Positions 3,844 through 34,641 of a stretch of 64,000 bases of DNA are shown here, piece after piece. Under the pieces are notes generated by a model. It was not told the origin of the DNA. It saw only the letters and a program-made list of their open reading frames with translations, and did not search any database. Each line of letters starts with the position of its first letter. Within the stretch, counting starts at the first letter, position 1. Both the position numbers and the translations under genes were made by a program. The stretch comes from Leadbetterella byssophila DSM 17132 (GTDB taxonomy: Bacteria > Bacteroidota > Bacteroidia > Cytophagales > Spirosomataceae). The stretch covers positions 372,001-436,000 of the forward strand of contig NC_014655.1 of NCBI RefSeq assembly GCF_000166395.1, in the 5' to 3' direction.

Positions 3844-4605
3844 TCAGGCGATGATCACTTGAACTCCGGCTTCTTCTAAAGCTTTTATAGATTCTTTTGG
3901 TGCCAGAGAATCCGTAATGACAAAGTTTACCGTTTCAATATCGCAGATTTTTGCAATTCCTCTCCGACCAAATTTGGTGTGATCTGCTAGGATAGCTACT
4001 TGTTGAGCAGTTTTGATCATCTCCTGGTTCAAACCTGCTTCGGTTAGATTTGAAATGGTGAACCCGAAATCCAGATCAATGCCGTCAACTCCTAAGAATA
4101 GTATTCCACAGGAGATTTGAGCTAGCATAAATTCAGCAAAGTTTCCGGCTACTGAAGATGAATTCGGGCGGATCAGTCCACCCAGTTGTAAAACCTCCAC
4201 ATTCGGAGTATTGGCAAGCTCCATTCCTACCTTTAAGGCAGGAGTGATGACTGTAACTCTATGGCTAGGCTTAAGTTGGCGGGCAAATTCAAACACCGTT
4301 GTTCCCGAGCCTATCATTAGAGAATCATTATTTCCTATGATCCTTAAAGCCGCTTTTCCAATGTTCTGTTTTTCTACACTATTGAAATGTTGTTTCTCGT
4401 GAATAGGTCGCTCTATAGCATAGGGGTTTTGGAGTGAAGCCCCACCATGCGTACGGTAGAGCAATTTTTTCTCTTCAAGGATTTTCAAATCCTTTCGTAA
4501 TGTTACACCTGAGACTTCTAGTTGCTCTGATAAGTCTTGGATGTGGATTTTACCTTTGTTATGGAGTTCTTCAAGTATGAACTGGTGTCTTTCTGTGATA
4601 GTCAT
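3844..4605 (-). CDS. DeoR/GlpR-family transcriptional repressor
   Basis: This 253-residue protein has the usual DeoR-family length. An N-terminal winged helix-turn-helix (about 1-57, with LSEQLEVSGVTLRKDL as recognition region and the RTHGGA hinge) precedes a DeoRC sugar-phosphate sensor domain (about 75-253) with the typical GSGTTVFEFA and LGVDGID stretches. Known members repress sugar or polyol operons and are released by phosphorylated intermediates. It is transcribed divergently from the SusC gene at 4859 and the 253-bp gap between them is AT-rich, so it probably controls that operon. A phosphorylated product of the FGGY kinases encoded downstream is a plausible inducer (inference). The family call is firm; the ligand is not known. 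Confidence 0.92.
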   Translation of the reverse strand: MTITERHQFILEELHNKGKIHIQDLSEQLEVSGVTLRKDLKILEEKKLLYRTHGGASLQNPYAIERPIHEKQHFNSVEKQNIGKAALRIIGNNDSLMIGSGTTVFEFARQLKPSHRVTVITPALKVGMELANTPNVEVLQLGGLIRPNSSSVAGNFAEFMLAQISCGILFLGVDGIDLDFGFTISNLTEAGLNQEMIKTAQQVAILADHTKFGRRGIAKICDIETVNFVITDSLAPKESIKALEEAGVQVIIA

Positions 4606-4685
4606 TTAATTATAGTGAAATGATTTGTAAGCAATATTACAATAAATTATTAAAAATAAAAGCTCATTTTATGAAAATTTTGTTA

Positions 4686-4697
4686 CGAATACTTTCG
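4686..4697. promoter_or_regulatory. Candidate operator, small inverted repeat CGAA-TACT-TTCG
   Basis: A 12-bp dyad in the divergent deoR-susC region, followed closely by the palindrome TGTTAACA at 4701-4708. Its place between a repressor gene and its likely target suggests an operator, but the dyad is short and could be chance. Confidence 0.25.
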
Positions 4698-4755
4698 ATA
4701 TGTTAACAAATAATTAAAAAAGATTCAAAAAAGTTTCTTTTTGTTTTGTTTTGTC

Positions 4756-4763
4756 TAGGTTTG
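4756..4763 (+). promoter_or_regulatory. Candidate Bacteroidota -7 promoter element for the susC operon
   Basis: TAGGTTTG fits the Bacteroidota -7 consensus TAnnTTTG and lies about 95 bp before the susC start. No TTTG sits at the ideal distance upstream (nearby TTTG copies at 4740-4743 and 4745-4748 are too close), which suits a weak, activator-dependent promoter. A long leader would follow. Confidence 0.45.
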
Positions 4764-4858
4764 TGCTTTCATTTGTGGAGAAAATGATGTTTCTTATTGA
4801 AATATAACCATTCTCCACACGCTATTAGAACTATTTAATAACCTTAATTCTAATTTTT

Positions 4859-7800
4859 ATGATGAAAGCTCTCTACGCTCCCAAGGTATTTCAGTACTGG
4901 AAGGCTGGGCTATTAATTATTTCACTTTTATTCTGTCATGGCGTTGGGCTAGCACAGAACAGAATAAGCGGGGTGGTCTTAGACGATGCAAAACAGCCCA
5001 TCATTGGCGCCAATGTACTTGAGAAGGGTACATTGAATGCTGCTTCAACTGACCTGGAAGGTAAGTTCACTATTACGGTGGCTCCAGGTGCAACCTTAAC
5101 CATTAGCTTCATCGGTTACTTGAGCAAAGAAGTAACTGTAGGAAACCAAACTTCCTTCACCATAACGCTTGAGGAAGACAGCCAATCTTTAGAAGAAGTA
5201 GTTGTAGTAGGTTATGGTACACAAAAGAAAGTCAATCTGACCGGTGCAGTATCCGCCATTGGTGGGGAGCAATTGGAAAGAAGACCTATCGTGTCTACTT
5301 CAAATGCGCTGCAAGGGGTAGCCCCAGGGGTGACTGTGACTTCGCAAACGGGTGCTCCCGGTGCTGACGAAGGCCAAATCAGGATTCGTGGTATCAACTC
5401 ATTTGGAGGATCCGACAGTAATCCATTGGTATTGATTGATGGTGTTCCGGGTTTAATTAATCAGGTAGACATCAACTTGATCGAATCCATTTCTGTACTT
5501 AAAGATGCTGCTTCTGCAGCTATTTATGGATCCAGAGCGGCAAACGGTGTGATTCTGATTACTACTAAACGCGCGAATAAAGGTAAGACAGAAATGAACT
5601 ATAGAGGATATACCGGATGGCAAAGTGCCACCAATATCCCTAAAGTAACAGACGGTCTCACCTACATGAGAGTGTTTAACGAAGCTAATATGAATGACAA
5701 CGGTTACGTCCTTTATGATGATGCTGCCATTCGCGACTTCGAACAAAAGTATAAGGCAAATCCGGATAATTTCGACTGGCAAAAGGCCATTCTAGACGGA
5801 TCTGGTTTTACTCAAAATCACTTCGTGTCTTTGTCGGCTAATTCTGATAAGATCCGCGTTATGCCTTCATTCAGTTATATCAGTCAGGATGGTATTATCA
5901 AGAATACCGGTTTTGAAAGATATATTCTTAGAAACAATATGGACGTGCAAGTGAATAGAAAATTGTCTCTAAAACTTGACTTGTCCTATACGAAAGGAGA
6001 TAGAAAGCAAATTGCAAACGAAGGAACTGTTTGGAACTATCTTGGTAGAATGCCTACTAATATTCCTATCAGAAGAAATGGACTTTGGTCAGAAGGTTGG
6101 GTAAATATCAACCCTGTAGCGAACATAGAAGAAGGAGGAAATCGTAAGGTAACCAATATAGAATTCCAAGGAAATATTAGTGCTACCTATAAGCCTGTGT
6201 CATGGTTGAGTTTTACGGGTCTAGTTTCGCCCCGTTACAGAACTACTAATTCGCACAACTTTATCAAATCCATCATGACCTATAATGATGACGGTAGTGA
6301 GGCCGGCGCATCAAATACCTTTACTGAATTGACAGAGACGGCGTACCGTTACACTTTTGGTAACTATCAATTCCTAACCTCTGCTTACAAAACGTACGGT
6401 AAACATAACTTCAACCTACTTTTAGGTGCTTCAAGAGAAACGTATGACGAGAAGTACTTGATGGGGTATAGAAGAGATTTTACTTATGATACTTATGAGG
6501 TATTGGCAGCCGGTGCAAATAACGAAACCAGAGATAATAATGGTACGCATGCACAATGGCTTCTTGTTTCAACATTCGGTAGATTAAACTATGATTTTGA
6601 TAGCAAATATCTATTTGAAGCTAACCTGAGATACGACGGTACCTCTCGTTTTATAGCGGCTAACCGTTGGGCAGCCTTCCCTTCTTTCTCTGCAGGATGG
6701 AGAATCACGGAAGAGGAATTTATGTCTGGTCTAAGAAATTCTATTAACCAATTAAAGTTACGTGTATCATGGGGTAAATTGGGTAACCAGAACATTGGTA
6801 GTTCCTACTATCCTTTTGCTGATGCTTTGGCTATTGGATCGATTTCTATGGCAGAAAAGATTTATCAGTTGGTTACCCAAAACACCATGTCTAACCCCGA
6901 TTTGAAATGGGAGGAAACCACCATGAAAGGTATTGGGGTTGATGCTACGATCTTTAATCATTTCAATATCACAGCGGACTACTACGATAAAGTGACTGAC
7001 GGTATCCTTTTGACGCTTTATACTTCCCAGTTGACCGGATTAAATGCACCATACCAAAACGCAGCGAAGGTGAGTAACAAAGGATGGGAATTAGGTATCA
7101 ACTACGACGATACTTTCGGTGATTTCAAATTAGGTCTAGGATTCAATATCTCTGATGTGAAAAACAAAATCATAGATATGAAAGGACAAACTTCGGGAAC
7201 CTTATTGCGTCAACAAGAAGGCTATCCAGTCAATTCAATCTTTGGTTTGATTGCTGATGGATTGTACCAAAGTCAAGAGGAGATCAATGCAGGTCCTACA
7301 CAGTTTGGTACTTTAAAACCTGGAGATATCCGCTACAGAGATATAGCAGGTGCATTTGATGCTAATGGGAATCCCATTCCAGATGGAAAGATAACGGATG
7401 ATGATAAAGTAGTCATAGGTTCCACCCTCCCAAGATATACTTACGGAATGAATCTTGACTTAGGGTGGAAAGGATTCTCTGCTAACGTCTTCTTCCAAGG
7501 CGTGGGTAAAGCAGATGGTTACTTAAACTCTCATTATGTAATTCCTACAGTTAACTCTTCTGCAGTGAAGACCTGGCAGTTGGATTACTGGACTCCGGAG
7601 AATACAGACGCGTCTTTGCCTAGATTGTCTACTACCTCTGCTAATAATACGCAGAACTCTAGCTTCTGGATGAAAGATGCTTCATACCTGAGACTTAAGA
7701 ATGTTCAATTAGGTTATACCTTACCAAAATCATGGACTCAAAAGTTGAATCTTAACAGTGCCATGATTTATGTAAACGGACAGAATGTGTTTACTAAAAC

Positions 7801-7930
7801 TAAATTCTGGAAGGGCTACGATCCTGAAATTGCTTACGATGCGGGAGCATCTGATGGCGTTTCTCTAGGCGGTGGTAATTATTATCCACAAGTAAAAGTA
7901 TACTCAGTAGGTCTAGACATTAAATTCTAA
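4859..7930 (+). CDS. SusC/RagA-family TonB-dependent outer-membrane transporter (first locus)
   Basis: This 1023-residue protein has a signal peptide (about 1-32, cleaved after LA), a carboxypeptidase-D regulatory-like beta-sandwich (about 33-115), a TonB-box-like EEVVVVGYGT segment, a plug domain (about 120-235, with IRIRG, LIDGVPG and LKDAASAAIYGSRAANGVI) and a 22-strand-type barrel ending in an aromatic residue (DIKF). No STN domain is present, so it does not look like an anti-sigma-linked transducer; regulation by the HTCS or DeoR protein fits better. With the SusD protein starting 7 bp later it should form the outer-membrane import complex for the first locus. ATG 4862 is an alternative start one codon later. 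The substrate cannot be read from sequence. Confidence 0.95.
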   Translation: MMKALYAPKVFQYWKAGLLIISLLFCHGVGLAQNRISGVVLDDAKQPIIGANVLEKGTLNAASTDLEGKFTITVAPGATLTISFIGYLSKEVTVGNQTSFTITLEEDSQSLEEVVVVGYGTQKKVNLTGAVSAIGGEQLERRPIVSTSNALQGVAPGVTVTSQTGAPGADEGQIRIRGINSFGGSDSNPLVLIDGVPGLINQVDINLIESISVLKDAASAAIYGSRAANGVILITTKRANKGKTEMNYRGYTGWQSATNIPKVTDGLTYMRVFNEANMNDNGYVLYDDAAIRDFEQKYKANPDNFDWQKAILDGSGFTQNHFVSLSANSDKIRVMPSFSYISQDGIIKNTGFERYILRNNMDVQVNRKLSLKLDLSYTKGDRKQIANEGTVWNYLGRMPTNIPIRRNGLWSEGWVNINPVANIEEGGNRKVTNIEFQGNISATYKPVSWLSFTGLVSPRYRTTNSHNFIKSIMTYNDDGSEAGASNTFTELTETAYRYTFGNYQFLTSAYKTYGKHNFNLLLGASRETYDEKYLMGYRRDFTYDTYEVLAAGANNETRDNNGTHAQWLLVSTFGRLNYDFDSKYLFEANLRYDGTSRFIAANRWAAFPSFSAGWRITEEEFMSGLRNSINQLKLRVSWGKLGNQNIGSSYYPFADALAIGSISMAEKIYQLVTQNTMSNPDLKWEETTMKGIGVDATIFNHFNITADYYDKVTDGILLTLYTSQLTGLNAPYQNAAKVSNKGWELGINYDDTFGDFKLGLGFNISDVKNKIIDMKGQTSGTLLRQQEGYPVNSIFGLIADGLYQSQEEINAGPTQFGTLKPGDIRYRDIAGAFDANGNPIPDGKITDDDKVVIGSTLPRYTYGMNLDLGWKGFSANVFFQGVGKADGYLNSHYVIPTVNSSAVKTWQLDYWTPENTDASLPRLSTTSANNTQNSSFWMKDASYLRLKNVQLGYTLPKSWTQKLNLNSAMIYVNGQNVFTKTKFWKGYDPEIAYDAGASDGVSLGGGNYYPQVKVYSVGLDIKF

Positions 7931-7936
7931 TCGAAC

Positions 7937-9682
7937 ATGAAAAAAGTACTTATATCAATATCGCTTTTATTTCTTTTAAATTCCTGTGAACTGGATAGGT
8001 TTCCATTAAATGGTCCTACAACAGGAACCTTCCCGGCTACTGCTCAAGAGGCAGAGATGGGCTTATTAGGTGCGTATAAAGGTTTAACCCTACTTTCAGC
8101 AGCAGACACTCCATGGCTCCATGTGATGGATAATATCACGGATATTGGGTATGCTCGCCCGGGTGTAAACTACACTTCGCCTATAACAAGCTCCCTTACT
8201 ACCACGAATGCCTTAGCCATTAAGCCTTGGGAGATACACTACAAGACTATAGCAAGATGCCATTCCGTATTAGATAATCTGGAGTCTATCAAGGATAAGA
8301 TGCAAGAGTCCACTTATTACATGATAGATGCTGAGCTAAGGGTTATTCGTGCTTATGCATATTCTCAATTGATCGAACTTTATGGGGATGTGCCACTGGT
8401 GAAAAATGGTCTTAAATTAGGTGAAACAGATGTCCCTAGAACATCTAAGAAAGAAATTCAGCAATGGATCATAGACGAGATGACTGCTGTTGCTGATAAG
8501 CTACCTGCGGCTCAAACTTCCTATGGTAACGTACGTGTAGGTGCAGTTGCTGCATATATGTTGAAAGCTCGTGTAGCTCTGTACGCTCAACAGTACACAG
8601 TAGCAGCAGATGCCGCCGCTAAAGCTCTGGCTTTGTCGGAAGGTATCTATGAATTGACTCCATTTAACAGCACCAAGCAGTTTGTAGGTAAGGATCATAG
8701 TGCAGGGGAACCAGAAAGTTCTAATATCTTCGGATATGAGGGATACAAATCCAGTAAAGAATGGATTTGGGTGATGGAGTATAATAAATCCATCAGTGGG
8801 AATACCCATAATCAGGGTTATTACATGGGTTCACGTCTAGGAAAAGGTGTTTGTTACTGGGGACCAACCCAAAACCTGATCGACTCTTTCCAAGCCATTG
8901 ACGGCTTACCTATTGATCAATCACCTCTTTATGATGCGGCAAATCCTTTTGCTAATAGAGACCCGAGATTAGACTTATATTGTGTAAGACCTCATTCTAG
9001 ATTATTGGGAATCCAGTTTGAACCTCATTCAAGTTTTGCGCGGGTGAATAACTACTGGCCGGTGATTAACGGAACGAGTGCTACACCAACGCAAGTAAGT
9101 AATACAGATGCTACAAATGCCTACCGTTCCTTCAGTGGATATTTGTGGAGGAAGCACCAAGATGTGTCTGATTACAATAACAATTCCGTTTCCGGTAATT
9201 CAGATTTAAATTGTGGTATTTTCCGTTTTGCAGAGTTATTGCTCCTATATGCTGAAGCAAAAATCGAAAGCAATAGCATTGATGCAAGTGTTTACGAGGC
9301 CATCAATAAAGTGAGAAGAAGAGCAGGTATGCCAGAGATAAAAAATGGCTTAAGCCAGGCTCAGTTGCGTACAGCATTACGCTACGAAAGAAAGGTGGAG
9401 TTAGCGAATGATGGATTGAGATGGTACGATATCCGTAGATGGGGCATAGCCCAAGAGGTGATGAATGGGGTATTATACTTGAACAGAGCTGCAACTCCAT
9501 GGACGAAGAGCGTATTGGTTCGTATTGATGAGAATTATTCTCCAATTTATAATACTACTGAGGCGAATAAATACTTCAATACACAAGACGTGATTTATAA
9601 GATCGGGAAAGATGAATATTGGCCAATTCCTTTCGCAGAGTTGAATGCTAATAAGAATCTGACTCAAAATCCTGGATATTAA
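7937..9682 (+). CDS. SusD/RagB-family substrate-binding lipoprotein (first locus)
   Basis: The 581-residue protein starts with a lipoprotein signal (lipobox LNSC, Cys17) and shows the SusD layout: an N-terminal TPR-rich SusD-like part (about 20-230, with RAYAYSQLIELYGDVPLV) and a C-terminal RagB/SusD domain ending in the family-typical YWPIPFAELNANKNLTQNPGY region. It begins 6 bp after susC and is certainly co-transcribed. It caps the SusC barrel at the cell surface and binds substrate. The gene is followed by a strong stem-loop at 9691-9714. Confidence 0.95.
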   Translation: MKKVLISISLLFLLNSCELDRFPLNGPTTGTFPATAQEAEMGLLGAYKGLTLLSAADTPWLHVMDNITDIGYARPGVNYTSPITSSLTTTNALAIKPWEIHYKTIARCHSVLDNLESIKDKMQESTYYMIDAELRVIRAYAYSQLIELYGDVPLVKNGLKLGETDVPRTSKKEIQQWIIDEMTAVADKLPAAQTSYGNVRVGAVAAYMLKARVALYAQQYTVAADAAAKALALSEGIYELTPFNSTKQFVGKDHSAGEPESSNIFGYEGYKSSKEWIWVMEYNKSISGNTHNQGYYMGSRLGKGVCYWGPTQNLIDSFQAIDGLPIDQSPLYDAANPFANRDPRLDLYCVRPHSRLLGIQFEPHSSFARVNNYWPVINGTSATPTQVSNTDATNAYRSFSGYLWRKHQDVSDYNNNSVSGNSDLNCGIFRFAELLLLYAEAKIESNSIDASVYEAINKVRRRAGMPEIKNGLSQAQLRTALRYERKVELANDGLRWYDIRRWGIAQEVMNGVLYLNRAATPWTKSVLVRIDENYSPIYNTTEANKYFNTQDVIYKIGKDEYWPIPFAELNANKNLTQNPGY

Positions 9683-9690
9683 TTTTCAGA

Positions 9691-9714
9691 GGGGATACAG
9701 GAGACTGTGTCCCC
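9691..9714 (+). other. Intercistronic stem-loop after susD (10-bp stem, GAGA loop)
   Basis: A 10-bp stem (GGGGATACAG paired with CTGTGTCCCC, one G-U) closed by a GNRA-type GAGA tetraloop, 9 bp after the susD stop. No T-run follows, so it is more likely an mRNA-stabilising or processing element than a full terminator. The second susD (29762-31327) also has a stem-loop in the same position. Confidence 0.6.
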
Positions 9715-9731
9715 ATTTCCAAGTTTGAACT

Positions 9732-10832
9732 ATGAAAAGACTACTCACCCTTACCCTATTTTTATTTCATACTGTGCTGGTATTTGGTCAATACCAAAAG
9801 CCACAGTTGGAAGACCAAAAATCATGGTCTATGATTGTCATTCCTGATATTCAGAATTATGTCAAATGGACACGAAATCAGCCTGTCCTTGATTTAATGA
9901 TGGCCTGGATAGAGGAGAATCTAGATAGTTTAAATGTGAAAATGGTGATGTGTGCCGGAGACCTTGTAGAACTGGATGATATTTTGGTTCCAGGTATAGA
10001 TGGCAATACACCAGCCCCTCGACAATGGGCTACTCCAGCTCAGGCTTTTAAGCGTTTGGATGGAAAAGTTCCTTACATAGCTGCATCCGGAAATCATGAT
10101 TATTCCATCAATGCCAAAGGAGAAAGGACCACTAATTACCCTACTTATTTTCCTATAGATAAAAACCCACTTAACTTCAAATATTTGGTACAAAACACCA
10201 GAAACGTACAAGGTATTCATACTCTAGAAAATGCGGTCTTGGAAATGAAAGGCCTCAATGGTAAAGATTACCTTTTCATGACCCTAGAATATGCTCCTAG
10301 AGATACGGTGATCAATTGGGCTAAGCGTGTGTCTAGTTTGGAGCAATACAAGAATCATAGAATTATCTTGATGACTCATGCCTATTTAAATACCAAAAAT
10401 GAAAGAACTACAGGAGAAAACAGATGGTTTATGTACGAGCCTTATTATGTGAACAGTGTAGTTGAAAAGTCAGCCAGAATTCCTTTGCCTCAGTCAAATA
10501 ATGGTGAGCAGATCTGGGAAAAGTTGATATACCCAAGCTCAAATTTCGCTATGGTGCTTTGCGGCCACATCAGTGGAGAGGGATACAGAATGGATAAAAA
10601 CATTGCAGGAAAACCTGTACATCAAATGTTATTTGATGCTCAAGATTATGGCGGCGGTCACCGGAACGGGAACGGTGGTGATGGCTGGTTAAGAATTTTG
10701 GAATTTAAACCCGACAATAAAACGGTAAAAGTAAAAACCTTTTCACCCCTATTTGCTATTTCGCCTTCGACGCAGCATCTGGCTTGGAAAAGAGATGCTA
10801 AGAATGAATTTGTATTGAATTATGAAGATTGA
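9732..10832 (+). CDS. Exported calcineurin-like metallophosphoesterase
   Basis: The 366-residue protein has a signal peptide (about 1-19, VFG|Q) and the five metallophosphoesterase blocks: VIPDIQ (D39), CAGDLVE (D77), ASGNHDY (N121, H122), MTHAY and LCGHISG. These residues ligate a di-metal centre that hydrolyses phosphomonoesters or diesters in the periplasm or at the surface. It lies directly after susCD, and its last 11 bases overlap the following MFS gene, so it belongs to the same transcript. Together with the EEP-fold enzyme (13421) and glycerophosphodiesterase (19937) it points to a phosphate-ester substrate. The family is clear, the exact substrate is not. Confidence 0.88.
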   Translation: MKRLLTLTLFLFHTVLVFGQYQKPQLEDQKSWSMIVIPDIQNYVKWTRNQPVLDLMMAWIEENLDSLNVKMVMCAGDLVELDDILVPGIDGNTPAPRQWATPAQAFKRLDGKVPYIAASGNHDYSINAKGERTTNYPTYFPIDKNPLNFKYLVQNTRNVQGIHTLENAVLEMKGLNGKDYLFMTLEYAPRDTVINWAKRVSSLEQYKNHRIILMTHAYLNTKNERTTGENRWFMYEPYYVNSVVEKSARIPLPQSNNGEQIWEKLIYPSSNFAMVLCGHISGEGYRMDKNIAGKPVHQMLFDAQDYGGGHRNGNGGDGWLRILEFKPDNKTVKVKTFSPLFAISPSTQHLAWKRDAKNEFVLNYED

Positions 10833-15501: not shown

Positions 15502-15503
15502 GA

Positions 15504-20800: not shown

Positions 20801-20836
20801 ATTCCTATCATTGAGAAATTAACTAACTTTAATAGA

Positions 20837-21781: not shown

Positions 21782-21807
21782 GCACGCTGAATAGCGTGCT
21801 TTTTTTG
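21781..21807 (+). terminator. Rho-independent terminator of the first operon
   Basis: AGCACGCT, loop GAAT, AGCGTGCT and seven T residues, directly on the stop codon of the nucleoside hydrolase. The perfect 8-bp GC-rich stem with T-run marks the end of the 17-kb operon that begins at 4859. Confidence 0.9.
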
Positions 21808-21846
21808 TTTAATATTTTTCGGTCTAAATAGGGGATTCGTGGTTAA

Positions 21847-23488: not shown

Positions 23489-23773
23489 AGGGTTGATTAA
23501 TACTTGTCTCTACACCCTAGCATTACGTCTACTTTCGGAAGTATTGTCCGAAAAAAGCTCAATTATAGGGTGCTGAAACTATTCTTTGGAAAGTAATATA
23601 AAAATATTGAAAAATGCAAGAATATATAATATAAAATATTGAAAATAAGATAAATAGAGAAAATATAGTCATTTTGAAGACATTCAATCTGTATTTTTTT
23701 GGTTTTTTTGCTTTACTATTGGCTTTTATGTTTACTGAAAAATTTAATAGTAAATATCAAAATATTGCAAAAC
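23489..23773. other. AT-rich divergent intergenic region
   Basis: This 285-bp stretch separates the reverse-strand helical protein from the ribokinase gene. It is strongly AT-rich, with runs of AATAT and T, and must hold promoters for both directions. I found no exact TAnnTTTG element or hairpin; TATTTTTTTGG near 23692 is the closest match for the forward gene. An in-frame TTG at 23699 would extend ribokinase into this non-coding-looking sequence. Confidence 0.5.
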
Positions 23774-24679: not shown

Positions 24680-24686
24680 GCTAATT

Positions 24687-25703: not shown

Positions 25704-25704
25704 T

Positions 25705-26709: not shown

Positions 26710-26732
26710 AATTAACCTAACATATTAATTAT

Positions 26733-29700
26733 ATGAATTTTTCTATGTTTTTCACCAAAAGAAAGGCATGGCAGAGACCCCTTTATTCTCTGCTTTGTAT
26801 GATGTGCTGCTGTAGTCTCGCTTTCGGACAAATCAGCGGTAGAGTGACGGATGAGGCCGGAGAGGCGGTCATCGGTGCCAGCGTAAGGGAAAAAGGTACT
26901 TCAAATGCTGCAGCTACAGATGTTGACGGGAAGTTTAGCCTTAATGTAAAGACAGGTGCTATCCTTGAAGTTAGCTTTATAGGATATGAGAAAGCAGAGG
27001 TGAAAGTAGACGGTAGAAGTTTCTACGAAATCATACTTTCCCAAGATCAGACCGCATTAGAAGAACTCGTGGTCATAGGGTACGGTACGGTAAAAAAGAA
27101 GGATTTAACAGGAGCAGTTTCAGTCATCAATACACAGGCATTAAGAGATAGAAATTCAAAGGACATCGTTAGCTCTTTGCAGGGTTTAGCATCCGGTGTA
27201 ACCGTTACCTCCAGTGGTCTTCCCGGTCAGCAAGCCAGTGTACGTATTCGTGGTCTAGGAAGTTTGACAAATAATAACCCGCTTTTCATCGTAGACGGTA
27301 TGATAGGTGGAGAAGCTCACCTTAACCCTGCAGATGTAGAATCTATTCAAGTATTGAAAGATGCCTCTGCCGCAGCTATCTATGGTTCTAGAGCGGCAAA
27401 CGGTGTGATCATCATCACCACTAAGAAAGGTCAGGAAGGACCTATGAAGGTGCAGTTTGATGCTAACTTATCCATCACAGATCTTCCAAGATATGATTTG
27501 ATGGATGCAGCGACCTGGAAGAAGTATGATGATATGGCGTATGATGAAGCCATTCGTTCAGGAGTAGCCGGCGTGGTACGTCGTCAAAATCACTTTGACG
27601 GTAATACCGACTGGCAAGATGAGATGCTAAGCACAGGCGTTTTACAGAACTACAACCTGGCCTTTTCGGGGGGCTCAAAGTCAGGTAAGTACTTTGTAGC
27701 TTTCAACCGTATGGAAGATAAAGGTGCTCTATACTCCACTGGATATGATCGCTACGGATTCCGTGTGAACACTAGCGGACAAAAAGGCATTTTCTCTTAC
27801 GGTGAAAACATTTCATTCACGCGTACGAATAGAAAGAACCTCAACGGAAACCCATGGGCTAACTTCATAGGTATTTCACCAACTATTCCTGTACGTGACG
27901 AAAATAATCCTGGGGGCTATGGTTACGGTAATCCGGACAGAGCGAATAACTATGGACTGAACATGGTAGCCATGCAGGACCTTCGTCCACAAGATAATCC
28001 TGAAAATATCCTGAAGTCTAACGTTTTTGGACAGGTTGTACTTTTTAAGGATTTGACCGCAAAAACTAACTTAGCCTATACTTGGTATCATGGAGTTACA
28101 AATACGCTTCGTAAGACAGGAAACTGGACTATGGGACAGGGTTCTGATGCAGCTTATTTGGGTTATGAGAGCTACAGAAGTGATGATTTTCTAGTAGAAC
28201 AGACTTTTAACTATAAGAAGCAAGTAGGTAAGCATGATATAGATGCCGTAGCCGGTGCCACGTATAATACTTTCAAAGGATTTACCAACTGGATCACGAA
28301 GTTGAATCCATTGATGGTAGGGGATGATTATATAACATCCTTAGATGCTGCTACGGGTAACACCTCTGCGGGAGGGAGCTATCAGCAAGCCAGAATCATG
28401 TCTTATTTAGGAAGGATTAATTATTCCTACGATGACAAATATCTGTTCCAATTTACTTTGAGAAGAGACGGGACATCACGCCTACCAGAAAGTACACGTT
28501 GGGGTAATTTCGCTTCTTATTCCGGAGCATGGAGGATCAGTAAAGAATCCTTCTTCCAGGTGCCTTTCATCAGTGATTTGAAGATTCGTGCCAGCCATGG
28601 TACCTTAGGAAACAGTAGCATAGGATACTGGGATTACCAGGCCGTGATTAACACTGCGCCTAGGGCGGTTTTCGGTTCTCCTGAAATCAGGGTTTTAGGG
28701 ATGACACAATCCCGTCTAACTAACACTGATTTAGTGTGGGAAAGAAAAACCACTACAAACGTGGGATTTGACGCAGCCTTCTTAAACAATAAGCTAACCC
28801 TTAGTGCGGAATATTTTGATGCAAAAAGTAAAGATTTATTGGTGTATTTGCCTATCCTGATGTCTTCAGGTAATGAGGGTGGAAACCCCGCCGTAAATGC
28901 CGGATCATTATCTAATAAAGGTGTGGAGATAGATTTAGGATGGAGAGATCAATTAACTCCTGACTTCCAATATTCCGCTAGCCTTAATCTAACCAAAGTG
29001 AAAAACAAGGTCCTGGATTTAGGTTATGGACGAGTGGAGTATTTTGAATCTCTATCTAAAGCGGAAATTGGACAGCCTTTAGGTGCATTTTATCTCTATA
29101 AGATGTTAGGCATCTTCCAAAATGAAGCAGAGATCCAAAATTACAAGAATGCAGCAGGTAAGGTTATTCAGCCGAATGCTAGACCGGGAGATATCAAATA
29201 TGATGATTACAATGGTGACGGCATTATTTCCTCTGAAGACAGACAGTTGGTAGGAAATCCTTGGCCAAAGTTTGAATTAGGATTGAATTTAGGAGCCTCT
29301 TATAAGAGCTTTGATTTGAGCATCAACGGTTACGGTCGTTTTGGACAGGATGTTTGGAACGGAGCCGCTGCAGCTGCTGGAGATTTTGCCAATAACCAAA
29401 ATAACTTTAACGGCATAGTGCCTTGGACGGCGGAGAATCCTGTGAATGACAGACCTAGAATTGTATTCGGAGACTCGAGAAACAGTAGAGGAGACCAAGA
29501 CAGATGGTTAGAAAAAGGTTCCTTCTTCCGCGTGAGTCAGATTGCTTTAGGTTATAGCCTTCCTCAAAAATGGGTAGGTACCTTGGGTCTTGACCAAGTT
29601 AGAGCAGGGGTAACACTTCAGAACATGTTGACCTTTACCAAGTATTCCGGTCTAGATCCTGAATTCAGAGACTCAGGCATCTTTACCATTGGTGCGGACC

Positions 29701-29756
29701 ATATGTCCTTCCCTAATCCACGATCGGTAATGTTTTCACTATCCTTATCTTTTTAA
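26733..29756 (+). CDS. SusC/RagA-family TonB-dependent transporter (second locus)
   Basis: The 1007-residue protein has a Cys-rich signal peptide (about 1-32, AFG|Q), a carboxypeptidase-D regulatory-like domain (33-110), the VVIGYGTVKKKDLTGAV TonB-box region, a plug domain with IRIRG, FIVDGMIGG and LKDASAAAIYGSRAANGVI, and a barrel ending in the aromatic SLSLSF. It follows the sugar carrier after 23 bp, so it is probably co-transcribed. It shares family architecture with the first SusC but differs throughout the barrel, indicating a different ligand. It pairs with the SusD protein 6 bp downstream. Confidence 0.95.
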   Translation: MNFSMFFTKRKAWQRPLYSLLCMMCCCSLAFGQISGRVTDEAGEAVIGASVREKGTSNAAATDVDGKFSLNVKTGAILEVSFIGYEKAEVKVDGRSFYEIILSQDQTALEELVVIGYGTVKKKDLTGAVSVINTQALRDRNSKDIVSSLQGLASGVTVTSSGLPGQQASVRIRGLGSLTNNNPLFIVDGMIGGEAHLNPADVESIQVLKDASAAAIYGSRAANGVIIITTKKGQEGPMKVQFDANLSITDLPRYDLMDAATWKKYDDMAYDEAIRSGVAGVVRRQNHFDGNTDWQDEMLSTGVLQNYNLAFSGGSKSGKYFVAFNRMEDKGALYSTGYDRYGFRVNTSGQKGIFSYGENISFTRTNRKNLNGNPWANFIGISPTIPVRDENNPGGYGYGNPDRANNYGLNMVAMQDLRPQDNPENILKSNVFGQVVLFKDLTAKTNLAYTWYHGVTNTLRKTGNWTMGQGSDAAYLGYESYRSDDFLVEQTFNYKKQVGKHDIDAVAGATYNTFKGFTNWITKLNPLMVGDDYITSLDAATGNTSAGGSYQQARIMSYLGRINYSYDDKYLFQFTLRRDGTSRLPESTRWGNFASYSGAWRISKESFFQVPFISDLKIRASHGTLGNSSIGYWDYQAVINTAPRAVFGSPEIRVLGMTQSRLTNTDLVWERKTTTNVGFDAAFLNNKLTLSAEYFDAKSKDLLVYLPILMSSGNEGGNPAVNAGSLSNKGVEIDLGWRDQLTPDFQYSASLNLTKVKNKVLDLGYGRVEYFESLSKAEIGQPLGAFYLYKMLGIFQNEAEIQNYKNAAGKVIQPNARPGDIKYDDYNGDGIISSEDRQLVGNPWPKFELGLNLGASYKSFDLSINGYGRFGQDVWNGAAAAAGDFANNQNNFNGIVPWTAENPVNDRPRIVFGDSRNSRGDQDRWLEKGSFFRVSQIALGYSLPQKWVGTLGLDQVRAGVTLQNMLTFTKYSGLDPEFRDSGIFTIGADHMSFPNPRSVMFSLSLSF

Positions 29757-29761
29757 TTGAC

Positions 29762-31327
29762 ATGAAAAAATATATTATAGGTTTGACGAGCTTGTTGTCA
29801 GTAGGATTAAGTTCTTGCGATGACAGTAAGTTAGATTTGGTCAACGAGAATACCATCTCCACCGGAAATTTCTGGAAAACGGAGAAAGATGCAGAGGCCG
29901 GCGTAATAGCCGTTTACGGTATGTTTTACCGTCAAGGAACCTGGACTAGAAATATCTATACTCAGATGCATGGACTTGCAGATGAGGGGGTGAGTTTAGC
30001 GGGATGGACTGAGCTAAATGAATATGCTAAGTTTATCTATACGAACTACAACTTCTCTGAAGTGAATACCAAGATTTGGAGAGAACACTATACCGCTATC
30101 TTTAGAGCTAACCAGGTTTTAGATAAGATTAATGATATTCCTTTCCAGAGTGAGCAGAGAAAGCAAGACCTGATAGGACAGGTGAAGTTTTTAAGGTCTT
30201 TCTATTATTTCTATATGACTACGTTATGGGAAAATCTGCCCTTTGTACTGAAGACTTCTTCTGCATCTGATATGCCTGAACAAAAGACTCCTAAAGAGAT
30301 CTTTGACCAGCTAGAAGTGGATTTAAAAGAGGCCATTGAAAAACTTCCTGCCACTAGAAATAATACAGAGTACGGTCGCCCTACAAAAGGTGCTGCTTAT
30401 GGCTTATTAGCCAAAGTACTTATGCAGAATGGAAAATATGCGGATGCCATCAAATGCTTTGAATGGTTAGTGGACGGAGAAGGTAAGTCGTACTACGACT
30501 TGACTGCGGACTACTCGGATAACTTTAATAACAAGACCGAGAATAATAAGGAGTCATTGTTTGAGATCCAATTCTCCTTAATGAACTATGTAGGTTTTGA
30601 CCAAACGGATAATTATTTGGATCCAAATGCTCAGCTGGGAACCCAAATCGAGATGAACCAAGCACCTGCTGGCATAGGTTGGAACAACATTGAAGCCAGA
30701 AGATGGTTAGTGGATTACTACAAGCGTGAAAAGACAGTGGATGGTAAGAATGACATACGCTTATTCCACACCGTGTGGTATGATGATGCGGGTAAGGACT
30801 TCCCGGAAAGGGCTGATACCCTGATATATGGTAATCGATGGAGAAACGATTGGGGACAAAGAGTCTTCATCAAAAAATATAGTACTACAGCGAACCCGCT
30901 GTTCTATTGGAACGATAACAACTTCCGCTCTTTAAGATACGCGGACATGCTCTTGCTTTACGCAGAAGCACTAAATGAGGTGAATGGTCCTAATGCTAAG
31001 GCGGTAGAGCTTGTGAATAGAGTTAGAAGTAGAGTACAACTTCCAAATCTTCAGAATAGTACGTACTACAATTATGCCAATATCATGTCCAGTAAAGAAG
31101 CGTTTAAGTCGCACCTAAAAATAGAAAGAGGTCTGGAGTTGAGTTTGGAGTGTGTTAGATGGATAGACTTGAAACGCTGGGGCTTAGAGGATCAGAAAAC
31201 CATTGACGAATTGAAATCCAGAGATGCTGATTTCAACAATTTCATCATAGGTAAGTCAGCTCGTATGCCTATCCCTCAAAGCGAGGTAGATAACAACGTA
31301 AATCTTAAGCAAAACCCTAACTATTAA
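29762..31327 (+). CDS. SusD/RagB-family substrate-binding lipoprotein (second locus)
   Basis: The 521-residue protein has a lipobox (LSSC, Cys19), the NFWKTEKDAEAGV start typical of SusD homologues, the FLRSFYYFYMTTLWENLPFV helix region and a C-terminal RagB domain ending in ARMPIPQSEVDNN..LKQNPNY. It is the surface lipoprotein partner of the upstream SusC. It is followed by a stem-loop with T-run at 31337-31370, which could lower expression of the three-gene module behind it. Confidence 0.95.
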   Translation: MKKYIIGLTSLLSVGLSSCDDSKLDLVNENTISTGNFWKTEKDAEAGVIAVYGMFYRQGTWTRNIYTQMHGLADEGVSLAGWTELNEYAKFIYTNYNFSEVNTKIWREHYTAIFRANQVLDKINDIPFQSEQRKQDLIGQVKFLRSFYYFYMTTLWENLPFVLKTSSASDMPEQKTPKEIFDQLEVDLKEAIEKLPATRNNTEYGRPTKGAAYGLLAKVLMQNGKYADAIKCFEWLVDGEGKSYYDLTADYSDNFNNKTENNKESLFEIQFSLMNYVGFDQTDNYLDPNAQLGTQIEMNQAPAGIGWNNIEARRWLVDYYKREKTVDGKNDIRLFHTVWYDDAGKDFPERADTLIYGNRWRNDWGQRVFIKKYSTTANPLFYWNDNNFRSLRYADMLLLYAEALNEVNGPNAKAVELVNRVRSRVQLPNLQNSTYYNYANIMSSKEAFKSHLKIERGLELSLECVRWIDLKRWGLEDQKTIDELKSRDADFNNFIIGKSARMPIPQSEVDNNVNLKQNPNY

Positions 31328-31336
31328 TAGCAGTGC

Positions 31337-31370
31337 TAGGGAGGTATAAGTGCCTCCCTACCTGTTTTTT
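31337..31370 (+). terminator. Stem-loop with T-run after second susD (attenuator or terminator)
   Basis: TAGGGAGG, 8-base loop, CCTCCCTA is a perfect 8-bp stem, followed after four bases by six T. It occupies the gap before the ATG at 31375, which supports that start over the in-frame GTG at 31333. Partial read-through into the next genes is likely because the downstream genes have no other visible promoter. Confidence 0.7.
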
Positions 31371-31374
31371 AGCT

Positions 31375-32385
31375 ATGAGAAAGATATTATTCCTACTTTT
31401 TATGAGTCAGGTTATGGCTTTCGCTCAAAAAACCGTAAGCCCTGAAATAAACTATGAATTCAGCGGAGGTGCTGGCTATTATAATTATGCTCCCAGTGTC
31501 ATCCAGGACGAATACGGTATACGGTATGCATTCGTTTGCCAGAATCTGGAACCTTTTAAGATTGTAGATTATATCTACCTCTATAAAGGTATTCCTACTT
31601 CAAAAGGATACGTATGGCAACCGGGTACTCGTATTATGGATCCCTCCAGTTCCGGTTGGGACATCAATCACGTATGTGATCCGGATGTTAGGCAGTTTAA
31701 AACCAAATACAATGGAGAGACTTATAATTATATCATGACGTACTTAGGTACAGATCAGTGGGATAATTTTCACAATCAAATAGGACTGGCTCTTTCAAAA
31801 AACATAGAGGGACCGTGGATTAAATTTGACAGAAATCCTATCATCGGATCTGCCAGTAAGACCACTTGGGGTGTAGGTCAGAGTACCAGTATTGTACTAA
31901 ATGATTCAACTATAAGGATTTTCTATTCTAATTCTGCCGGCGGCTTTACCTACAGAGACGGTATTCTGTCTGATCTCAATAATATCAGGTGGAGCGAAGA
32001 GAAGTATATAAAAAATATGCCTGGGAATAATTACCCCGCCTTTTCTAAGAAAAACGTTTACATGGTTTCCGAAAGAAGGGAGAATATGGACAAGTTAATT
32101 CCTACTTGGGTGGGGAACGTGGCGCAACTATCTTATTTGCCTTTGTCTGAAGATTTAAGTACAGACGGGTCAAAATGGATTAAGATAGGAGCAGTAACTC
32201 CTCAGGGTTCAGGTTTTCCTAGGAACCATAATCCCGGGATTCTGACGGACCCCAAAGGATATATGTTGAATGACGACGAATTGATCATGTATTTTACACC
32301 TGCCATGACAGGGGAAAACTGGCTTTGGTCCTATGACCTGTATTCGGCAAAATTTGATCTAAAAAAGTATTTTGCTCATGAATAA
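31375..32385 (+). CDS. Exported beta-propeller protein, candidate glycoside hydrolase
   Basis: ATG 31375 gives 336 residues with a good signal peptide (about 1-17, AFA|Q). The body is rich in beta-strand and Trp/Tyr, with blade-like spacing resembling five-bladed GH43/GH117-type propellers: an NYAPSVIQDEYG opening, VCDPDVRQF, a NQIGLALSKNIEGPW blade, TTWGVGQSTS and FPRNHNPGIL. I cannot name a family. It is paralogous to the lipoprotein at 33514, with which it shares the CDP, WGVGQ and RNHN blocks; these conserved polar residues are the likely active site. It overlaps the next gene by 8 bp. Confidence 0.72.
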   Translation: MRKILFLLFMSQVMAFAQKTVSPEINYEFSGGAGYYNYAPSVIQDEYGIRYAFVCQNLEPFKIVDYIYLYKGIPTSKGYVWQPGTRIMDPSSSGWDINHVCDPDVRQFKTKYNGETYNYIMTYLGTDQWDNFHNQIGLALSKNIEGPWIKFDRNPIIGSASKTTWGVGQSTSIVLNDSTIRIFYSNSAGGFTYRDGILSDLNNIRWSEEKYIKNMPGNNYPAFSKKNVYMVSERRENMDKLIPTWVGNVAQLSYLPLSEDLSTDGSKWIKIGAVTPQGSGFPRNHNPGILTDPKGYMLNDDELIMYFTPAMTGENWLWSYDLYSAKFDLKKYFAHE

Positions 32386-33517
32386 AACCTTCTTTCTGTT
32401 CTTTTTGCTAGCCTTCACATCTGTGCTAGGGAAAGACGTGATTGTCATTACGGATTGCTATCATCCCTACCAAGATCCAGGTGATAACCTGGATTTACTG
32501 CATAGTTACGGCTTGAAAGATATCCGTACCAAAGGAATTATCTTAGATATAACTGACGCATTTCGGAAAGATACCGCAGATCATCCTACCCTTTGGAAAG
32601 ATCCTAGAGGTCCTAGGGAAGCGGGAATCATTCCTCTATTACAATTGGAATATATCTTTGGAAAGAAGATTCCCTATGCTATTGGCCCGATTTCCATGAT
32701 GCAGCATGAACGAGACGAAATGAGGTCGCTACGGGCATTTGAGGAGGAAGGTATTCTGCTTTTTCTTCAGTTGCTCAGAGATGCTCAAGAACCTATTGAA
32801 GTGCTTTCTTTTGGAAGTGCAAGGGTGCTGGCAGTGGCATTTAACAGAGAACCTGAATTATTGAAGGCTAAAATAAAGATGATCCATCTAAGTGCTGGTA
32901 CAGCAAGTCAGAATCATGAATTAGGCAAGGACGTGGGCGCGAACATGATACCAGGTGGAGAATGGAATGTGGCCTTAGATGTGCATGCCTTTAACCGAAT
33001 TTTGAAATCTGATTTACCCTTGATTTTATACCCTTGCGCAGGTAAGGATGGGGGTTTTGTAAAAGATGTGCACAATACTTACTTCACATTAAAGAGTCTT
33101 GATTTCCTAAAGGAACTTAGAGCACCTATTCAGAACTTTATTCATTATGCCTTTACTACTTCTACACGAAAAGATTTTTTGAGAGCTATGGATGAAGAGG
33201 GAGCCTATAGTAGAGGAGAGGAAACTCCCTTTAAGAGTTTTCATTTCTGGGAAACACCCATCTGGATTATGGTTAGAGAACTGGTCATAGTGGTAGATGG
33301 TAACCATTCTTATTCCCTGAAGAAATCAGCCTCCAAGGGGGAAAGAGTAGTTTCAAATCAAATCCTTCCCATTAGATTCACAGAAATCCGAGAAGATGGT
33401 AGATTTCAATTTGAAAAGGTTAAAACATCTAGGCAGTTTATATTCTACAGGGAAGACCTGGAAGAAAGTGAAAGAGCACTGAATGCAATAGTTCCACAAG
33501 TTTTAAAAGAGATATGA
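32378..33517 (+). CDS. Exported nucleoside-hydrolase-like protein with altered metal motif
   Basis: ATG 32378 gives 379 residues with a signal peptide (about 1-18). The N-terminal strand DVIVITDCYHPYQDPGDNLD recalls the nucleoside hydrolase calcium loop but is longer, with HPYQ inserted before DPGDN. Later blocks (GIILDITDAF, VLSFGSARVLAVAFNREPELL, IHLSAGT) follow the nucleoside hydrolase fold order. It may be a distant N-ribohydrolase relative with a new substrate; I would not assign ordinary nucleoside hydrolase activity. It is translationally coupled to both flanking propeller genes (8-bp and 4-bp overlaps), so the three products probably work on the same molecule. Confidence 0.68.
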   Translation: MNKTFFLFFLLAFTSVLGKDVIVITDCYHPYQDPGDNLDLLHSYGLKDIRTKGIILDITDAFRKDTADHPTLWKDPRGPREAGIIPLLQLEYIFGKKIPYAIGPISMMQHERDEMRSLRAFEEEGILLFLQLLRDAQEPIEVLSFGSARVLAVAFNREPELLKAKIKMIHLSAGTASQNHELGKDVGANMIPGGEWNVALDVHAFNRILKSDLPLILYPCAGKDGGFVKDVHNTYFTLKSLDFLKELRAPIQNFIHYAFTTSTRKDFLRAMDEEGAYSRGEETPFKSFHFWETPIWIMVRELVIVVDGNHSYSLKKSASKGERVVSNQILPIRFTEIREDGRFQFEKVKTSRQFIFYREDLEESERALNAIVPQVLKEI

Positions 33518-34641
33518 TAAAGTATTGTTGGGTTCTCGTTTTCTTATGCGCTTGTTCGAAAAGTGCGCCGGTTCCAGACCTTCCTGAACCTCCTCCCGTG
33601 CCTACTTATCAATGGGTAGGTCAAGAAAGGGTTTTTGGGTTTTATAATCAATATAGGTATTCCTATTGTCCCAGCGTTGTGAAAGATGGAAGCGGTTTTA
33701 CCCATATGTTTTTCTGTGGCAATCCGGAACAAACCATTATGGTAGATAATATCTACCATGTAAAGTGGCAGGAAGGTCAAGCCTTGACAGAAGCGAAAAG
33801 TGTACTGCAGCCTGGTGTTCTAGGCTCATGGGATGATCACCATACTTGTGACCCTAGTGTCGTTCAAGGCGATTTTTCAATGGGGGGAGAAAGATATACC
33901 TACGCCATGTTCTATCTGACAAATCCTTATTCCGCCTACTATAATGAAGTGGGCGTGGCCTTTTCCAATAGCTTGGATGGGGATTCCTGGGTTAAGTATC
34001 CAAAGCAAATTGTTAGCAAACCCTGGACCTATGAAGGAGATGAATTACTGCCTAATGGGGGGAAATCCTGGGGAGTAGGACAGCCGTCTGCATTCACATT
34101 GGATAAGAAGGGCAAAGTTATTCTTACTTATACGGTGGGGGATATCCAAGGTACACGCATAGAGTGGGCTGAGTTGGATCTAAGTGATATGGATAAGTTC
34201 CAGAAGAGAAATGGAAATAGAATGGTGCAAAATGGCCTAGTAAACATAGGATATACCGGTCAAGATTATACCTGCAACTCTGATTTTGCGGTTGACATAG
34301 AAAAGAATAAAATAGTTATGGTGCGACCCGTTCAGCCCCATCCGTCCACTTATCCTGCATTTTTGAATGAAAGTCTAGAGGTGAACTATATGGACTTATC
34401 AGATTTTATGGCCGGGAGTGGAAAATGGGAAGTTATGCTAAGGATCTCTCCCTACATGACAGGCTTTGCTAGAAATCATAATGCAGGTTTAGAGAGAAAT
34501 GGTTTCGGAGAAATCAGTAAGTGGGAAGAGCCTACCGTCTACTTTACGGTTAGTAAAGCTGCTCCAGAAGTTAGCGCGGGCACCACTACCCATGCGGAAT
34601 GGACTTACCATATTTATAGAGGAAAGATAGTCAAACAATAG
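33514..34641 (+). CDS. Beta-propeller lipoprotein, paralogue of the 31375 protein
   Basis: The 375-residue protein has a lipobox (LCAC, Cys14), a short Pro-rich linker (about 18-32) and a propeller-like body with the same landmarks as the 31375 product: YCPSVVKDGSG, HTCDPSVVQ, NEVGVAFSNSLDG, KSWGVGQPSA and FARNHNAGL. The linker suggests it is displayed away from the membrane, probably on the cell surface beside SusD. It is likely a glycoside hydrolase or carbohydrate-binding lectin of an undescribed clan, but this is inference from fold-like pattern and context. It is the last gene of the second run. Confidence 0.7.
   Translation: MIKYCWVLVFLCACSKSAPVPDLPEPPPVPTYQWVGQERVFGFYNQYRYSYCPSVVKDGSGFTHMFFCGNPEQTIMVDNIYHVKWQEGQALTEAKSVLQPGVLGSWDDHHTCDPSVVQGDFSMGGERYTYAMFYLTNPYSAYYNEVGVAFSNSLDGDSWVKYPKQIVSKPWTYEGDELLPNGGKSWGVGQPSAFTLDKKGKVILTYTVGDIQGTRIEWAELDLSDMDKFQKRNGNRMVQNGLVNIGYTGQDYTCNSDFAVDIEKNKIVMVRPVQPHPSTYPAFLNESLEVNYMDLSDFMAGSGKWEVMLRISPYMTGFARNHNAGLERNGFGEISKWEEPTVYFTVSKAAPEVSAGTTTHAEWTYHIYRGKIVKQ

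Follow-up and report, generated by a model that had tools for sequence, protein, structure and literature searches.

Introduction

Parts of several described systems recur in the locus examined here, a stretch of 64,000 nucleotides of Leadbetterella byssophila DSM 17132 (hereafter the window; C1:372001-436000 of genome G000, 4.06 Mb in a single contig). The ribose utilization system Rus of Bacteroides thetaiotaomicron has two ribokinases, the ribitol and D-arabitol operons of Klebsiella join a transporter of the RbtT/DalT type to a dehydrogenase and a pentulose kinase, and the polyol kinase EryA is a member of the FGGY family. The Rus polysaccharide utilization locus comprises BT2803-2809 and is ribose-responsive (PMC12596196 and PMC12548429, in the portions used here), and the erythritol, adonitol and L-arabitol loci of Sinorhizobium meliloti contain eryA, lalA and rbtABC, EryA also taking adonitol and L-arabitol (PMC3599248, in the portion used here).

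In the window, a preliminary description had treated positions 3844-34641 as one supercluster of SusC/SusD systems, phosphoesterases, proteins of the nucleoside hydrolase fold and polyol or pentose metabolism. Its observation is correct in content, but too broad in scope, since the stretch consists of two separable units, each of which occurs without the other. Unit A (3844-20800) has its own DeoR-family regulator and forms a catabolic cassette not previously characterised, whereas unit B (NH1 at 20837-21781, plus 21998-34641) is a rus-type ribose and nucleoside locus. The pairing of exported phosphodiesterases with polyol or pentose metabolism under a SusC/SusD pair is real, and is conserved well outside the window. 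With slightly less than even confidence, we propose that the exported phosphodiesterases of unit A liberate a polyol, which is probably a pentitol and enters the pentose-phosphate pathway by way of a D-ribulokinase-like kinase, and that the rus unit B stands apart from it.

Comparison with the described systems brings out what is distinctive in each unit. Unit B has in common with Rus (BT2802-2809; Glowacki et al. 2020, as far as the excerpts used describe it) a regulator of the BT2802 family, a ribokinase, a nucleoside hydrolase, a RusT-like carrier and SusC/SusD, the comparison being one of families and descriptions; unlike Rus, it has one ribokinase, three proteins of the nucleoside hydrolase fold, and the paralogous secreted proteins X350 and X375. 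Unit A and the ribitol and D-arabitol operons both have a transporter of the RbtT family and a D-ribulokinase-like kinase, but unit A adds a D-2-hydroxyacid-dehydrogenase-family enzyme (2HADH), a flavin adenine dinucleotide (FAD) oxidoreductase (FADox), a second FGGY kinase, exported phosphodiesterases and SusC/SusD, and has no recognised polyol dehydrogenase. The S. meliloti loci, likened here by description, have an FGGY-type polyol kinase as does unit A, and their logic of ABC import, dehydrogenase and kinase resembles a FADox operon of Neorhizobium described below; unlike unit A they import by ABC transporters, and phosphodiesterases are unmentioned in the portion of PMC3599248 used. Finally, SusC/SusD polysaccharide utilization loci and unit A have in common SusC/SusD, exported hydrolases, inner-membrane import and a local regulator, although in unit A phosphoesterases take the place of glycoside hydrolases or lyases. 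A literature search at the level of titles and abstract openings returned no description of the cassette or its substrate.

Organization of unit A

The open reading frames (ORFs) of the preliminary description were found where it had placed them, and the families it had named (two SusC/SusD pairs, phosphoesterases, major facilitator superfamily (MFS) transporters, oxidoreductases, kinases and a carrier) were confirmed by Pfam and NCBIfam profiles; Pfam searches of the proteins of both gene runs were made at E 0.001, and export and lipoprotein status was judged by eye from the N-termini. It was also right in recognising no classical polysaccharide hydrolase or lyase, as no glycoside hydrolase (GH) or polysaccharide lyase family of Pfam was matched in either run at this threshold. 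A histidine phosphatase gene (19353-19940) had been overlooked.

Unit A begins with the DeoR-family regulator (3844-4605, reverse strand; Pfam DeoRC and HTH_DeoR), followed on the forward strand by the TonB-dependent receptor SusC1 (4859-7930, by Pfam) and the lipoprotein SusD1 (7937-9682, SusD_RagB). Next come an exported metallophosphoesterase, MPE (9732-10832; Metallophos, 35.3 bits), for which a PDB sequence search gave no relative at E 0.001, and MFSa (10822-12045), an MFS protein resembling galactonate and anion:cation symporters that scores 208.6 bits with TIGR00893, below its cut-off of 395. The predicted cytoplasmic FADox (12045-13424; PF12831, 423.6 bits) gave only short N-terminal PDB matches in the dinucleotide-binding region, and its structure model was poor (mean predicted local distance difference test score, pLDDT, 54.9) and of no use for a fold search. 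It is followed by an exported phosphoesterase of the EEP family (13421-14302; Exo_endo_phos), with a Tat-like N-terminus by eye, the PDB relatives of which include 4c1r, named mannosyl-6-phosphatase. The transporter at 14299-15501 scores 551.1 bits with TIGR00897, above the curated cut-off of 375, which places it in the RbtT/DalT/CsbX family of ribitol and arabitol transporters (RbtT). The remaining genes are those of 2HADH (15504-16514, by Pfam), the autoinducer-2-kinase-like FGGY1 (16511-17938; nearest PDB chain 5ya0), the D-ribulokinase-like FGGY2 (17935-19359; nearest PDB chain 5htn, SePSK), the histidine phosphatase of branch 1, HisPhos (19353-19940; His_Phos_1), which scores 142.7 bits with the alpha-ribazole phosphatase model (cut-off 162.9), and the exported glycerophosphodiesterase-family enzyme GDPD (19937-20800; Pfam GDPD, 85 bits), the last gene of the unit. 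The nearest PDB chain of GDPD is 3mz2 (E 1e-96), and by eye it carries HRG, EN, ExD and HD, which we take to be the catalytic motif of a predicted glycerophosphodiesterase.

No gap between SusC1 and GDPD exceeds 49 bp. From MPE through GDPD, neighboring genes overlap or lie 2 bp apart at all nine junctions, which by anatomy makes this part one transcription unit. An operon of 4859-21781 had been proposed; its tight portion from MPE to GDPD stands, whereas its last gene, NH1 (20837-21781), is assigned by orthology to rus, as explained below.

Conservation of the unit A core

Loci for comparison were the best 80 of 114 relatives from a scan with an FGGY1 alignment; 79 of them come from Bacteroidota records and one from a metagenome-assembled genome (MAG) named ‘Williamsia’. 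Since FGGY1 was the bait, its own count is circular, while those of the other genes are not. Genes were counted by tblastn with per-gene identity cut-offs of 35-60%, set after a first inspection of the loci, and collinearity was scored on ORFs. The ORF caller had hidden some genes (FGGY1 79, HisPhos 79, 2HADH 78 and RbtT 75 by ORFs), so the tblastn counts supersede these. By tblastn, FGGY1, FGGY2, HisPhos and 2HADH were each found in 80 of the 80 loci, RbtT in 76, GDPD in 68 and DeoR in 64. Fragments at contig ends were counted (loci L050 and L078, in both of which RbtT is cut by the contig end); they make up one of the 2HADH and one of the RbtT occurrences.

The core of unit A thus comprises DeoR, the RbtT-family transporter, 2HADH, two FGGY kinases, HisPhos and the exported GDPD. 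Its order is conserved as well, 2HADH, FGGY1, FGGY2 and HisPhos being collinear in 75 loci, together with RbtT in 71, and with GDPD in addition in 63; median gaps range from -4 to 33 bp, with a single outlier of 8.4 kb. The association of phosphodiesterases with polyol or pentose metabolism that had been noticed in the window therefore reappears in relatives, through GDPD in 68 of the core loci and through EEP, always with MFSa and FADox, in 24. Relatives of MPE are present in 12 loci, and further exported phosphodiesterases were each seen next to the core in one locus, a type I phosphodiesterase in L098 and a second GDPD in L076. The wider co-occurrence did not reappear: rus-type genes lie within 10 kb of the unit A core in just one of the 80 loci. 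A single conserved supercluster is rejected on this count, whereas unit A alone is conserved.

The core spans several Bacteroidota families, and the species that carry it include Chitinophaga pinensis (L055), Dyadobacter fermentans (L081) and Pseudoflavitalea rhizosphaerae (L040). The core kinase was found in 30 of 222 genomes of the family, in 2 of 10 of the window’s genus, and in 3 of 296 in a phylum-wide draw (window included), and FADox in 3 of the 222; with counts this low, the distribution of unit A is patchy. Genome G009 preserves the complete order from DeoR to GDPD (60-87% identity), has one EEP more than the window and lacks NH1. This is also the only one of 99 genomes with an EEP relative at the level of an ortholog outside the window (71%), all other matches being at 36% or less. 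The contig of the ‘Williamsia’ MAG (L086) holds unit A at 58-81% identity without GDPD; it falls inside the Chitinophagaceae on the FGGY1 tree (82 rows; L052, missed by the ORF caller, is absent) and is probably a mis-binned contig. The window itself groups on this tree with what are probably Chitinophagaceae.

GDPD is missing beside the core of genome G361 and of the Niabella loci L117-L119, and its place is taken by a protein of no known family (no Pfam match for that of L119; the likeness among the replacement proteins was judged by eye). Taken with the GH106-like and rhamnose-type neighbors of other loci, discussed below, this suggests that the core may serve more than one substrate.

An all-or-none set of three genes

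MFSa, FADox and EEP occur all three together in 24 of the 80 loci, and none of them occurs in the other 56, as confirmed by tblastn. The SusC/SusD pair of the window goes with this set: relatives of SusC1 or SusD1 at 60% identity or more were found in 13 of the 24 loci with the set and in none of the 56 without. For SusC1 the counts are 12 of 24 against 0 of 56, only 5 of the 12 matches extending over half its length because the gene is truncated by the locus end in many loci, and for SusD1 they are 9 of 24 against 0 of 56. MPE relatives are found on both sides, in 8 of 24 and 4 of 56. Mapped onto the FGGY1 tree, the presence of the set requires 10 gains or losses, compared to a mean of 22.3 when shuffled (0 of 500 shuffles as low), and at least 8 of the 10 changes are forced by well-supported branches. 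That the three genes were gained or lost together time and again next to this core is good evidence that they work as a unit. The set is also present in all loci that lack RbtT other than by truncation (L044, L095 and L097), and in G475, which lacks it too, for which reason MFSa may act as a stand-in for RbtT.

Relatives of FADox outside the phylum were found at 70-74% identity on five alphaproteobacterial plasmids of Neorhizobium and Microvirga. The annotated order in Neorhizobium EC2-8 is LacI, two sugar ABC permeases, FADox in two pieces, UgpC, a short-chain dehydrogenase/reductase (SDR) and an FGGY kinase, with binding-protein-like ORFs ahead of FADox by eye. The unannotated Neorhizobium SOG26 has the same layout by eye, and its FGGY kinase passes the pentulose-kinase model (704 bits, cut-off 409). 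These neighbors tie FADox to polyol or pentulose metabolism in another phylum, on two plasmids.

Unit B, a rus-type locus

Unit B contains, in order, a RusR-type regulator (21998-23488, reverse strand) and, on the forward strand, the ribokinase RusK (23699-24679; TIGR02152, 369 bits, cut-off 300), the lipoprotein nucleoside hydrolase NH2 (24687-25703; IU_nuc_hydro), a RusT-type carrier of the ureide-permease or RhaT type (25705-26709; Ureide_permease and Sugar_transport), SusC2 (26733-29756) and SusD2 (29762-31327), both by Pfam, the secreted protein X350 (31333-32385), NH3 (32372-33517) and the lipoprotein X375 (33514-34641). The RusK profile match begins at residue 31, and the true start is thus probably at about 23774. 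Ribokinase, nucleoside hydrolase, sugar carrier and SusC/SusD are contiguous, as in a rus locus. X350 and X375 are paralogous (31% identical) and have no Pfam or NCBIfam match; the structure model of X350 was poor (mean pLDDT 40.6) and of no use for a fold search. Three proteins of the nucleoside hydrolase fold had been named in the stretch, and three are indeed present; NH3 scores 29.9 bits with PF01156, below the gathering score of 34.2, and the name nucleoside hydrolase holds for it at the level of the fold.

The assignment to rus is based on the regulator and on synteny. RusR scores 565.5 bits with NF058569 (BT2802 family ribose utilization protein), above the cut-off of 550. In a search of 99 genomes and 14 control genomes, this family was matched in 21 of the 99 at E 0.001, of which three (G000, G005 and G009) exceeded the cut-off, and in none of the controls. 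In genome G005, of the same genus, RusR, RusK, NH2, RusT, SusC2, SusD2, X350, NH3 and X375 keep the order they have in the window, with 58-81% identity (SusC2 76%, SusD2 78%, X375 64%, NH3 58%), and FGGY1 and FADox have no match at E 1e-100; this genome thus holds unit B without unit A. The rus locus of G009 has RusR, RusK, NH2 and RusT at 71-88%, NH3 at 43%, a different SusC/SusD, and an ortholog of NH1 at its end. By analogy with Rus, the nucleoside hydrolases of unit B would free ribose, which RusT would import and the ribokinase phosphorylate.

NH1 (20837-21781, forward strand), an exported protein of the nucleoside hydrolase family (IU_nuc_hydro), starts 36 bp after GDPD and ends before a terminator-like hairpin with a T tract (21780-21801, forward strand; consensus scan, 9-bp stem), and may be co-transcribed with unit A. 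It is to be noted that such sites are barely enriched in the region (4, compared to 2.8 in shuffles). No relative of NH1 at 35% identity or more was found in the 80 unit A loci, and at E 1e-30 in 58 other genomes its single match (72%) was the protein that closes the rus locus of G009. NH1 was therefore rejected as a member of unit A and assigned to rus by orthology.

Directly 3' of rus lies a HAD phosphatase gene (34674-35348, forward strand), near the hexitol phosphatase HxpB (172.7 bits, cut-off 191); no match to it was found within 40 kb around the rus locus of G005.

Proposed pathway of unit A and its alternatives

From these gene families we infer the substrate class, the order of reactions and all catalytic activities of the units. 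SusC1 and SusD1 would capture a phosphodiester-containing molecule, to be hydrolysed by the extracytoplasmic MPE, EEP and GDPD. RbtT would import the polyol set free, in the likeliest case a pentitol (for example ribitol or arabitol), and MFSa a second, probably anionic product; FADox and/or 2HADH, together with FGGY1, would convert the imported polyol, FGGY2 would make a pentulose 5-phosphate for the pentose-phosphate pathway, and HisPhos may strip phosphate from a by-product. In a more specific form that we regard as doubtful, the material would be a pentitol phosphate, teichoic-acid-like or a ribitol-phosphate capsule, depolymerised by GDPD, EEP and MPE, with 2HADH and the two FGGY kinases replacing the SDR step; next to rus, this would allow complete use of ribosyl-ribitol-phosphate polymers.

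The PDB scores of FGGY2 are 188 bits for SePSK, 184 for AtXK-1 and 99 for the xylulose kinase 2itm (the codes of the first two assigned from the portion of PMC4880283 used), and it keeps the aligned SePSK residues D8, T11, S72, K163 and D221, with Ser222 replaced by Gly. In that portion of PMC4880283, the ATPase activity of SePSK is stimulated most strongly by D-ribulose among five substrates, and that of AtXK-1 responds weakly to D-ribulose.

A number of observations weigh against the pentitol reading. AtXK-1, the weak responder, is nearly as near to FGGY2 as is SePSK, and every NCBIfam kinase model that FGGY2 matches scores it below cut-off (TIGR01315, 64 against 409 bits; XylB, 197 against 380). 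Enzymes of the 2HADH type typically use 2-hydroxy acids, which hints at an acid sugar over a pentitol, and no Pfam family of SDR, medium-chain dehydrogenases (MDR) or iron-containing alcohol dehydrogenases (ADH) was found among the unit A proteins. FGGY1 is closest in the PDB to autoinducer-2 kinase, including the REGIV loop, features in common with the lsr autoinducer-2 system; unlike that system, however, unit A has no lsr transporter and no LsrF or LsrG family member, and FGGY1 lies far under the cut-off of the LsrK equivalog model (139.1 against 528 bits). The Microvirga plasmid has ABC genes and FADox followed by a transposase instead of the SDR and the kinase. RbtT and GDPD are both missing in L044, L095, L097 and G475. 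Lastly, GH106-like proteins (14 ORFs) occur in 13 of the 80 loci, that of L061 being verified as GH106 at 613 bits, and L082 and L109 have neighbors that resemble rhamnose-catabolic genes by eye; when two of those of L082 were profiled, the kinase proved to be of the FGGY family and the supposed isomerase had no Pfam match. Some carriers may thus apply the core to a rhamnose glycan.

The last of these points leads to an alternative that we consider unlikely, although it survives better than the others: that the substrate of unit A is a sugar acid or branched sugar from a glycan containing rhamnose. 2HADH would then use a 2-keto or 2-hydroxy acid, and the products would go to the FGGY kinases. 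The presence of 2HADH in all 80 loci, the likeness of MFSa to galactonate transporters and the 13 loci with GH106-like proteins agree with it, as does G361, where DeoR to HisPhos stands without FADox, MFSa and GDPD amid GH-like proteins (by eye). The remaining 67 loci, however, have no GH106-like member in the stretch covered, GDPD accompanies the core in 68, RbtT belongs to a curated polyol-transporter family, and Pfam and NCBIfam models reveal neither an acid-sugar dehydratase nor an aldolase of the 2-keto-3-deoxygluconate (KDG) type in the core.

It is less probable that unit A chiefly draws on degraded phospholipids, taking phosphorus and polyol head groups from glycerophosphodiesters such as glycerophosphoglycerol or glycerophosphoinositol. 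GDPD is indeed the commonest exported partner of the core (68 of 80), and in L076 the core has a second GDPD and a TonB-receptor-like protein (by eye), but the unit has a DeoR-type regulator, not one of phosphate starvation, and two carbon kinases, neither of which reaches the glycerol-kinase cut-off, and no inositol-catabolic family is found in unit A.

Still less credit is given to a single integrated system of units A and B, using ribose and ribitol in phosphodiester linkage (a ribosyl-ribitol-phosphate polymer, a flavin nucleotide or CDP-ribitol), in which the enzymes of the nucleoside hydrolase fold would cut the ribosyl part and the phosphodiesterases the remainder. In Sphingobacterium chuzhouense (L107), RusK, RusT, NH2 and an EEP-like protein (by eye) follow GDPD directly and in the same orientation. 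This is the only one of the 80 loci with RusK, RusT or NH2, however, and NH1, NH3, RusR, X350 and X375 are found in none. In G009 the two units are found within 5 kb of the starts of contigs C6 (unit A) and C36 (rus); were these contigs to adjoin, start facing start, their orientations would give the order seen in the window. The neighborhood of the two units may therefore be ancestral within the genus, although the two contig starts have no common k-mer of 18 or more. Against integration stand also the complete rus of G005 without FGGY1 and FADox matches, and the finding that Rus by itself accounts for ribose use in Bacteroides (PMC12596196, in the portion used). One shared substrate for both halves, as first suggested, is thus not upheld, the rus half being a known ribose locus that occurs separately; nucleotides, nicotinamide adenine dinucleotide (NAD) or ADP-ribose in that role have no support other than the neighborhood, and nucleotides and NAD were rejected, there being no supporting gene outside rus.

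The G009 contig ends (L031:1-3905 and L146:1-4977) encode by eye a UvrD-like helicase, a helix-turn-helix regulator, a SymE-like toxin and a HigB-like toxin/antitoxin pair, so that a mobile element or defence genes may be inserted between unit A and rus there.

Salvage of S-adenosylmethionine by-products (5-deoxyribose, methylthioribose or compounds like 4,5-dihydroxy-2,3-pentanedione) is very improbable: FGGY1 is LsrK-like, and relatives of 2HADH (43%) and FGGY1 (35%) in Enterococcus raffinosus share an operon of pentose chemistry, without phosphodiesterases, with fuculose-phosphate aldolase, iron ADH, MtnK and MtnA, while a Klebsiella plasmid has a 2HADH relative (34%) and an FGGY kinase beside an MtnB-family protein, but the window core lacks MtnK, MtnA, MtnB and an aldolase, and the phosphodiesterases and SusC/SusD would have no obvious role.

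Candidate operator and neighboring genes

Of 63 regions upstream of DeoR (that of the window included), 26 contain the decamer TTAAACAAAA, against none of 43 control regions, a contrast confounded by composition, the controls having 40% G+C and the upstream regions 30%; in mononucleotide shuffles it is expected in about 0.4 of 63. Similarly, AAACAAAA / TTTTGTTT is enriched upstream of DeoR (37 of 63, compared to 4 of 43 controls), again with A+T content as a confounder. In the corresponding region of the window (4606-4858) the inner part, TTTTGTTT, occurs twice, while the decamer is absent by eye. As a weak lead, TTAAACAAAA may be a DeoR operator, and AAACAAAA / TTTTGTTT is likewise a candidate operator.

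Beside DeoR lies a hybrid two-component regulator gene (55-3771, forward strand). Beside DeoR in G009, just a C-terminal stretch like it (62% over 193 amino acids) was found, so that the regulator may once have shared in the control of unit A. On the far side of rus, a thiamine operon (35274-38089, reverse strand) encodes hydroxyethylthiazole kinase, thiamine-phosphate synthase, hydroxymethylpyrimidine phosphate kinase and TenA, and is preceded by a thiamine pyrophosphate riboswitch (38131-38223, reverse strand). Beyond it lies the gene of a SprB-repeat protein of 3453 amino acids (38318-48679, reverse strand) with a Por secretion tail and bacterial Ig-like domains.

Significance

If unit A indeed serves phosphodiester-linked polyols, it would extend the reach of SusC/SusD systems to a class of nutrients, namely residues of teichoic acids, phospholipids and capsules, that is seldom credited to them, and its dehydrogenase chemistry would be unusual for polyol catabolism. 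The cassette is small and is carried by culturable species, which makes the proposal testable.

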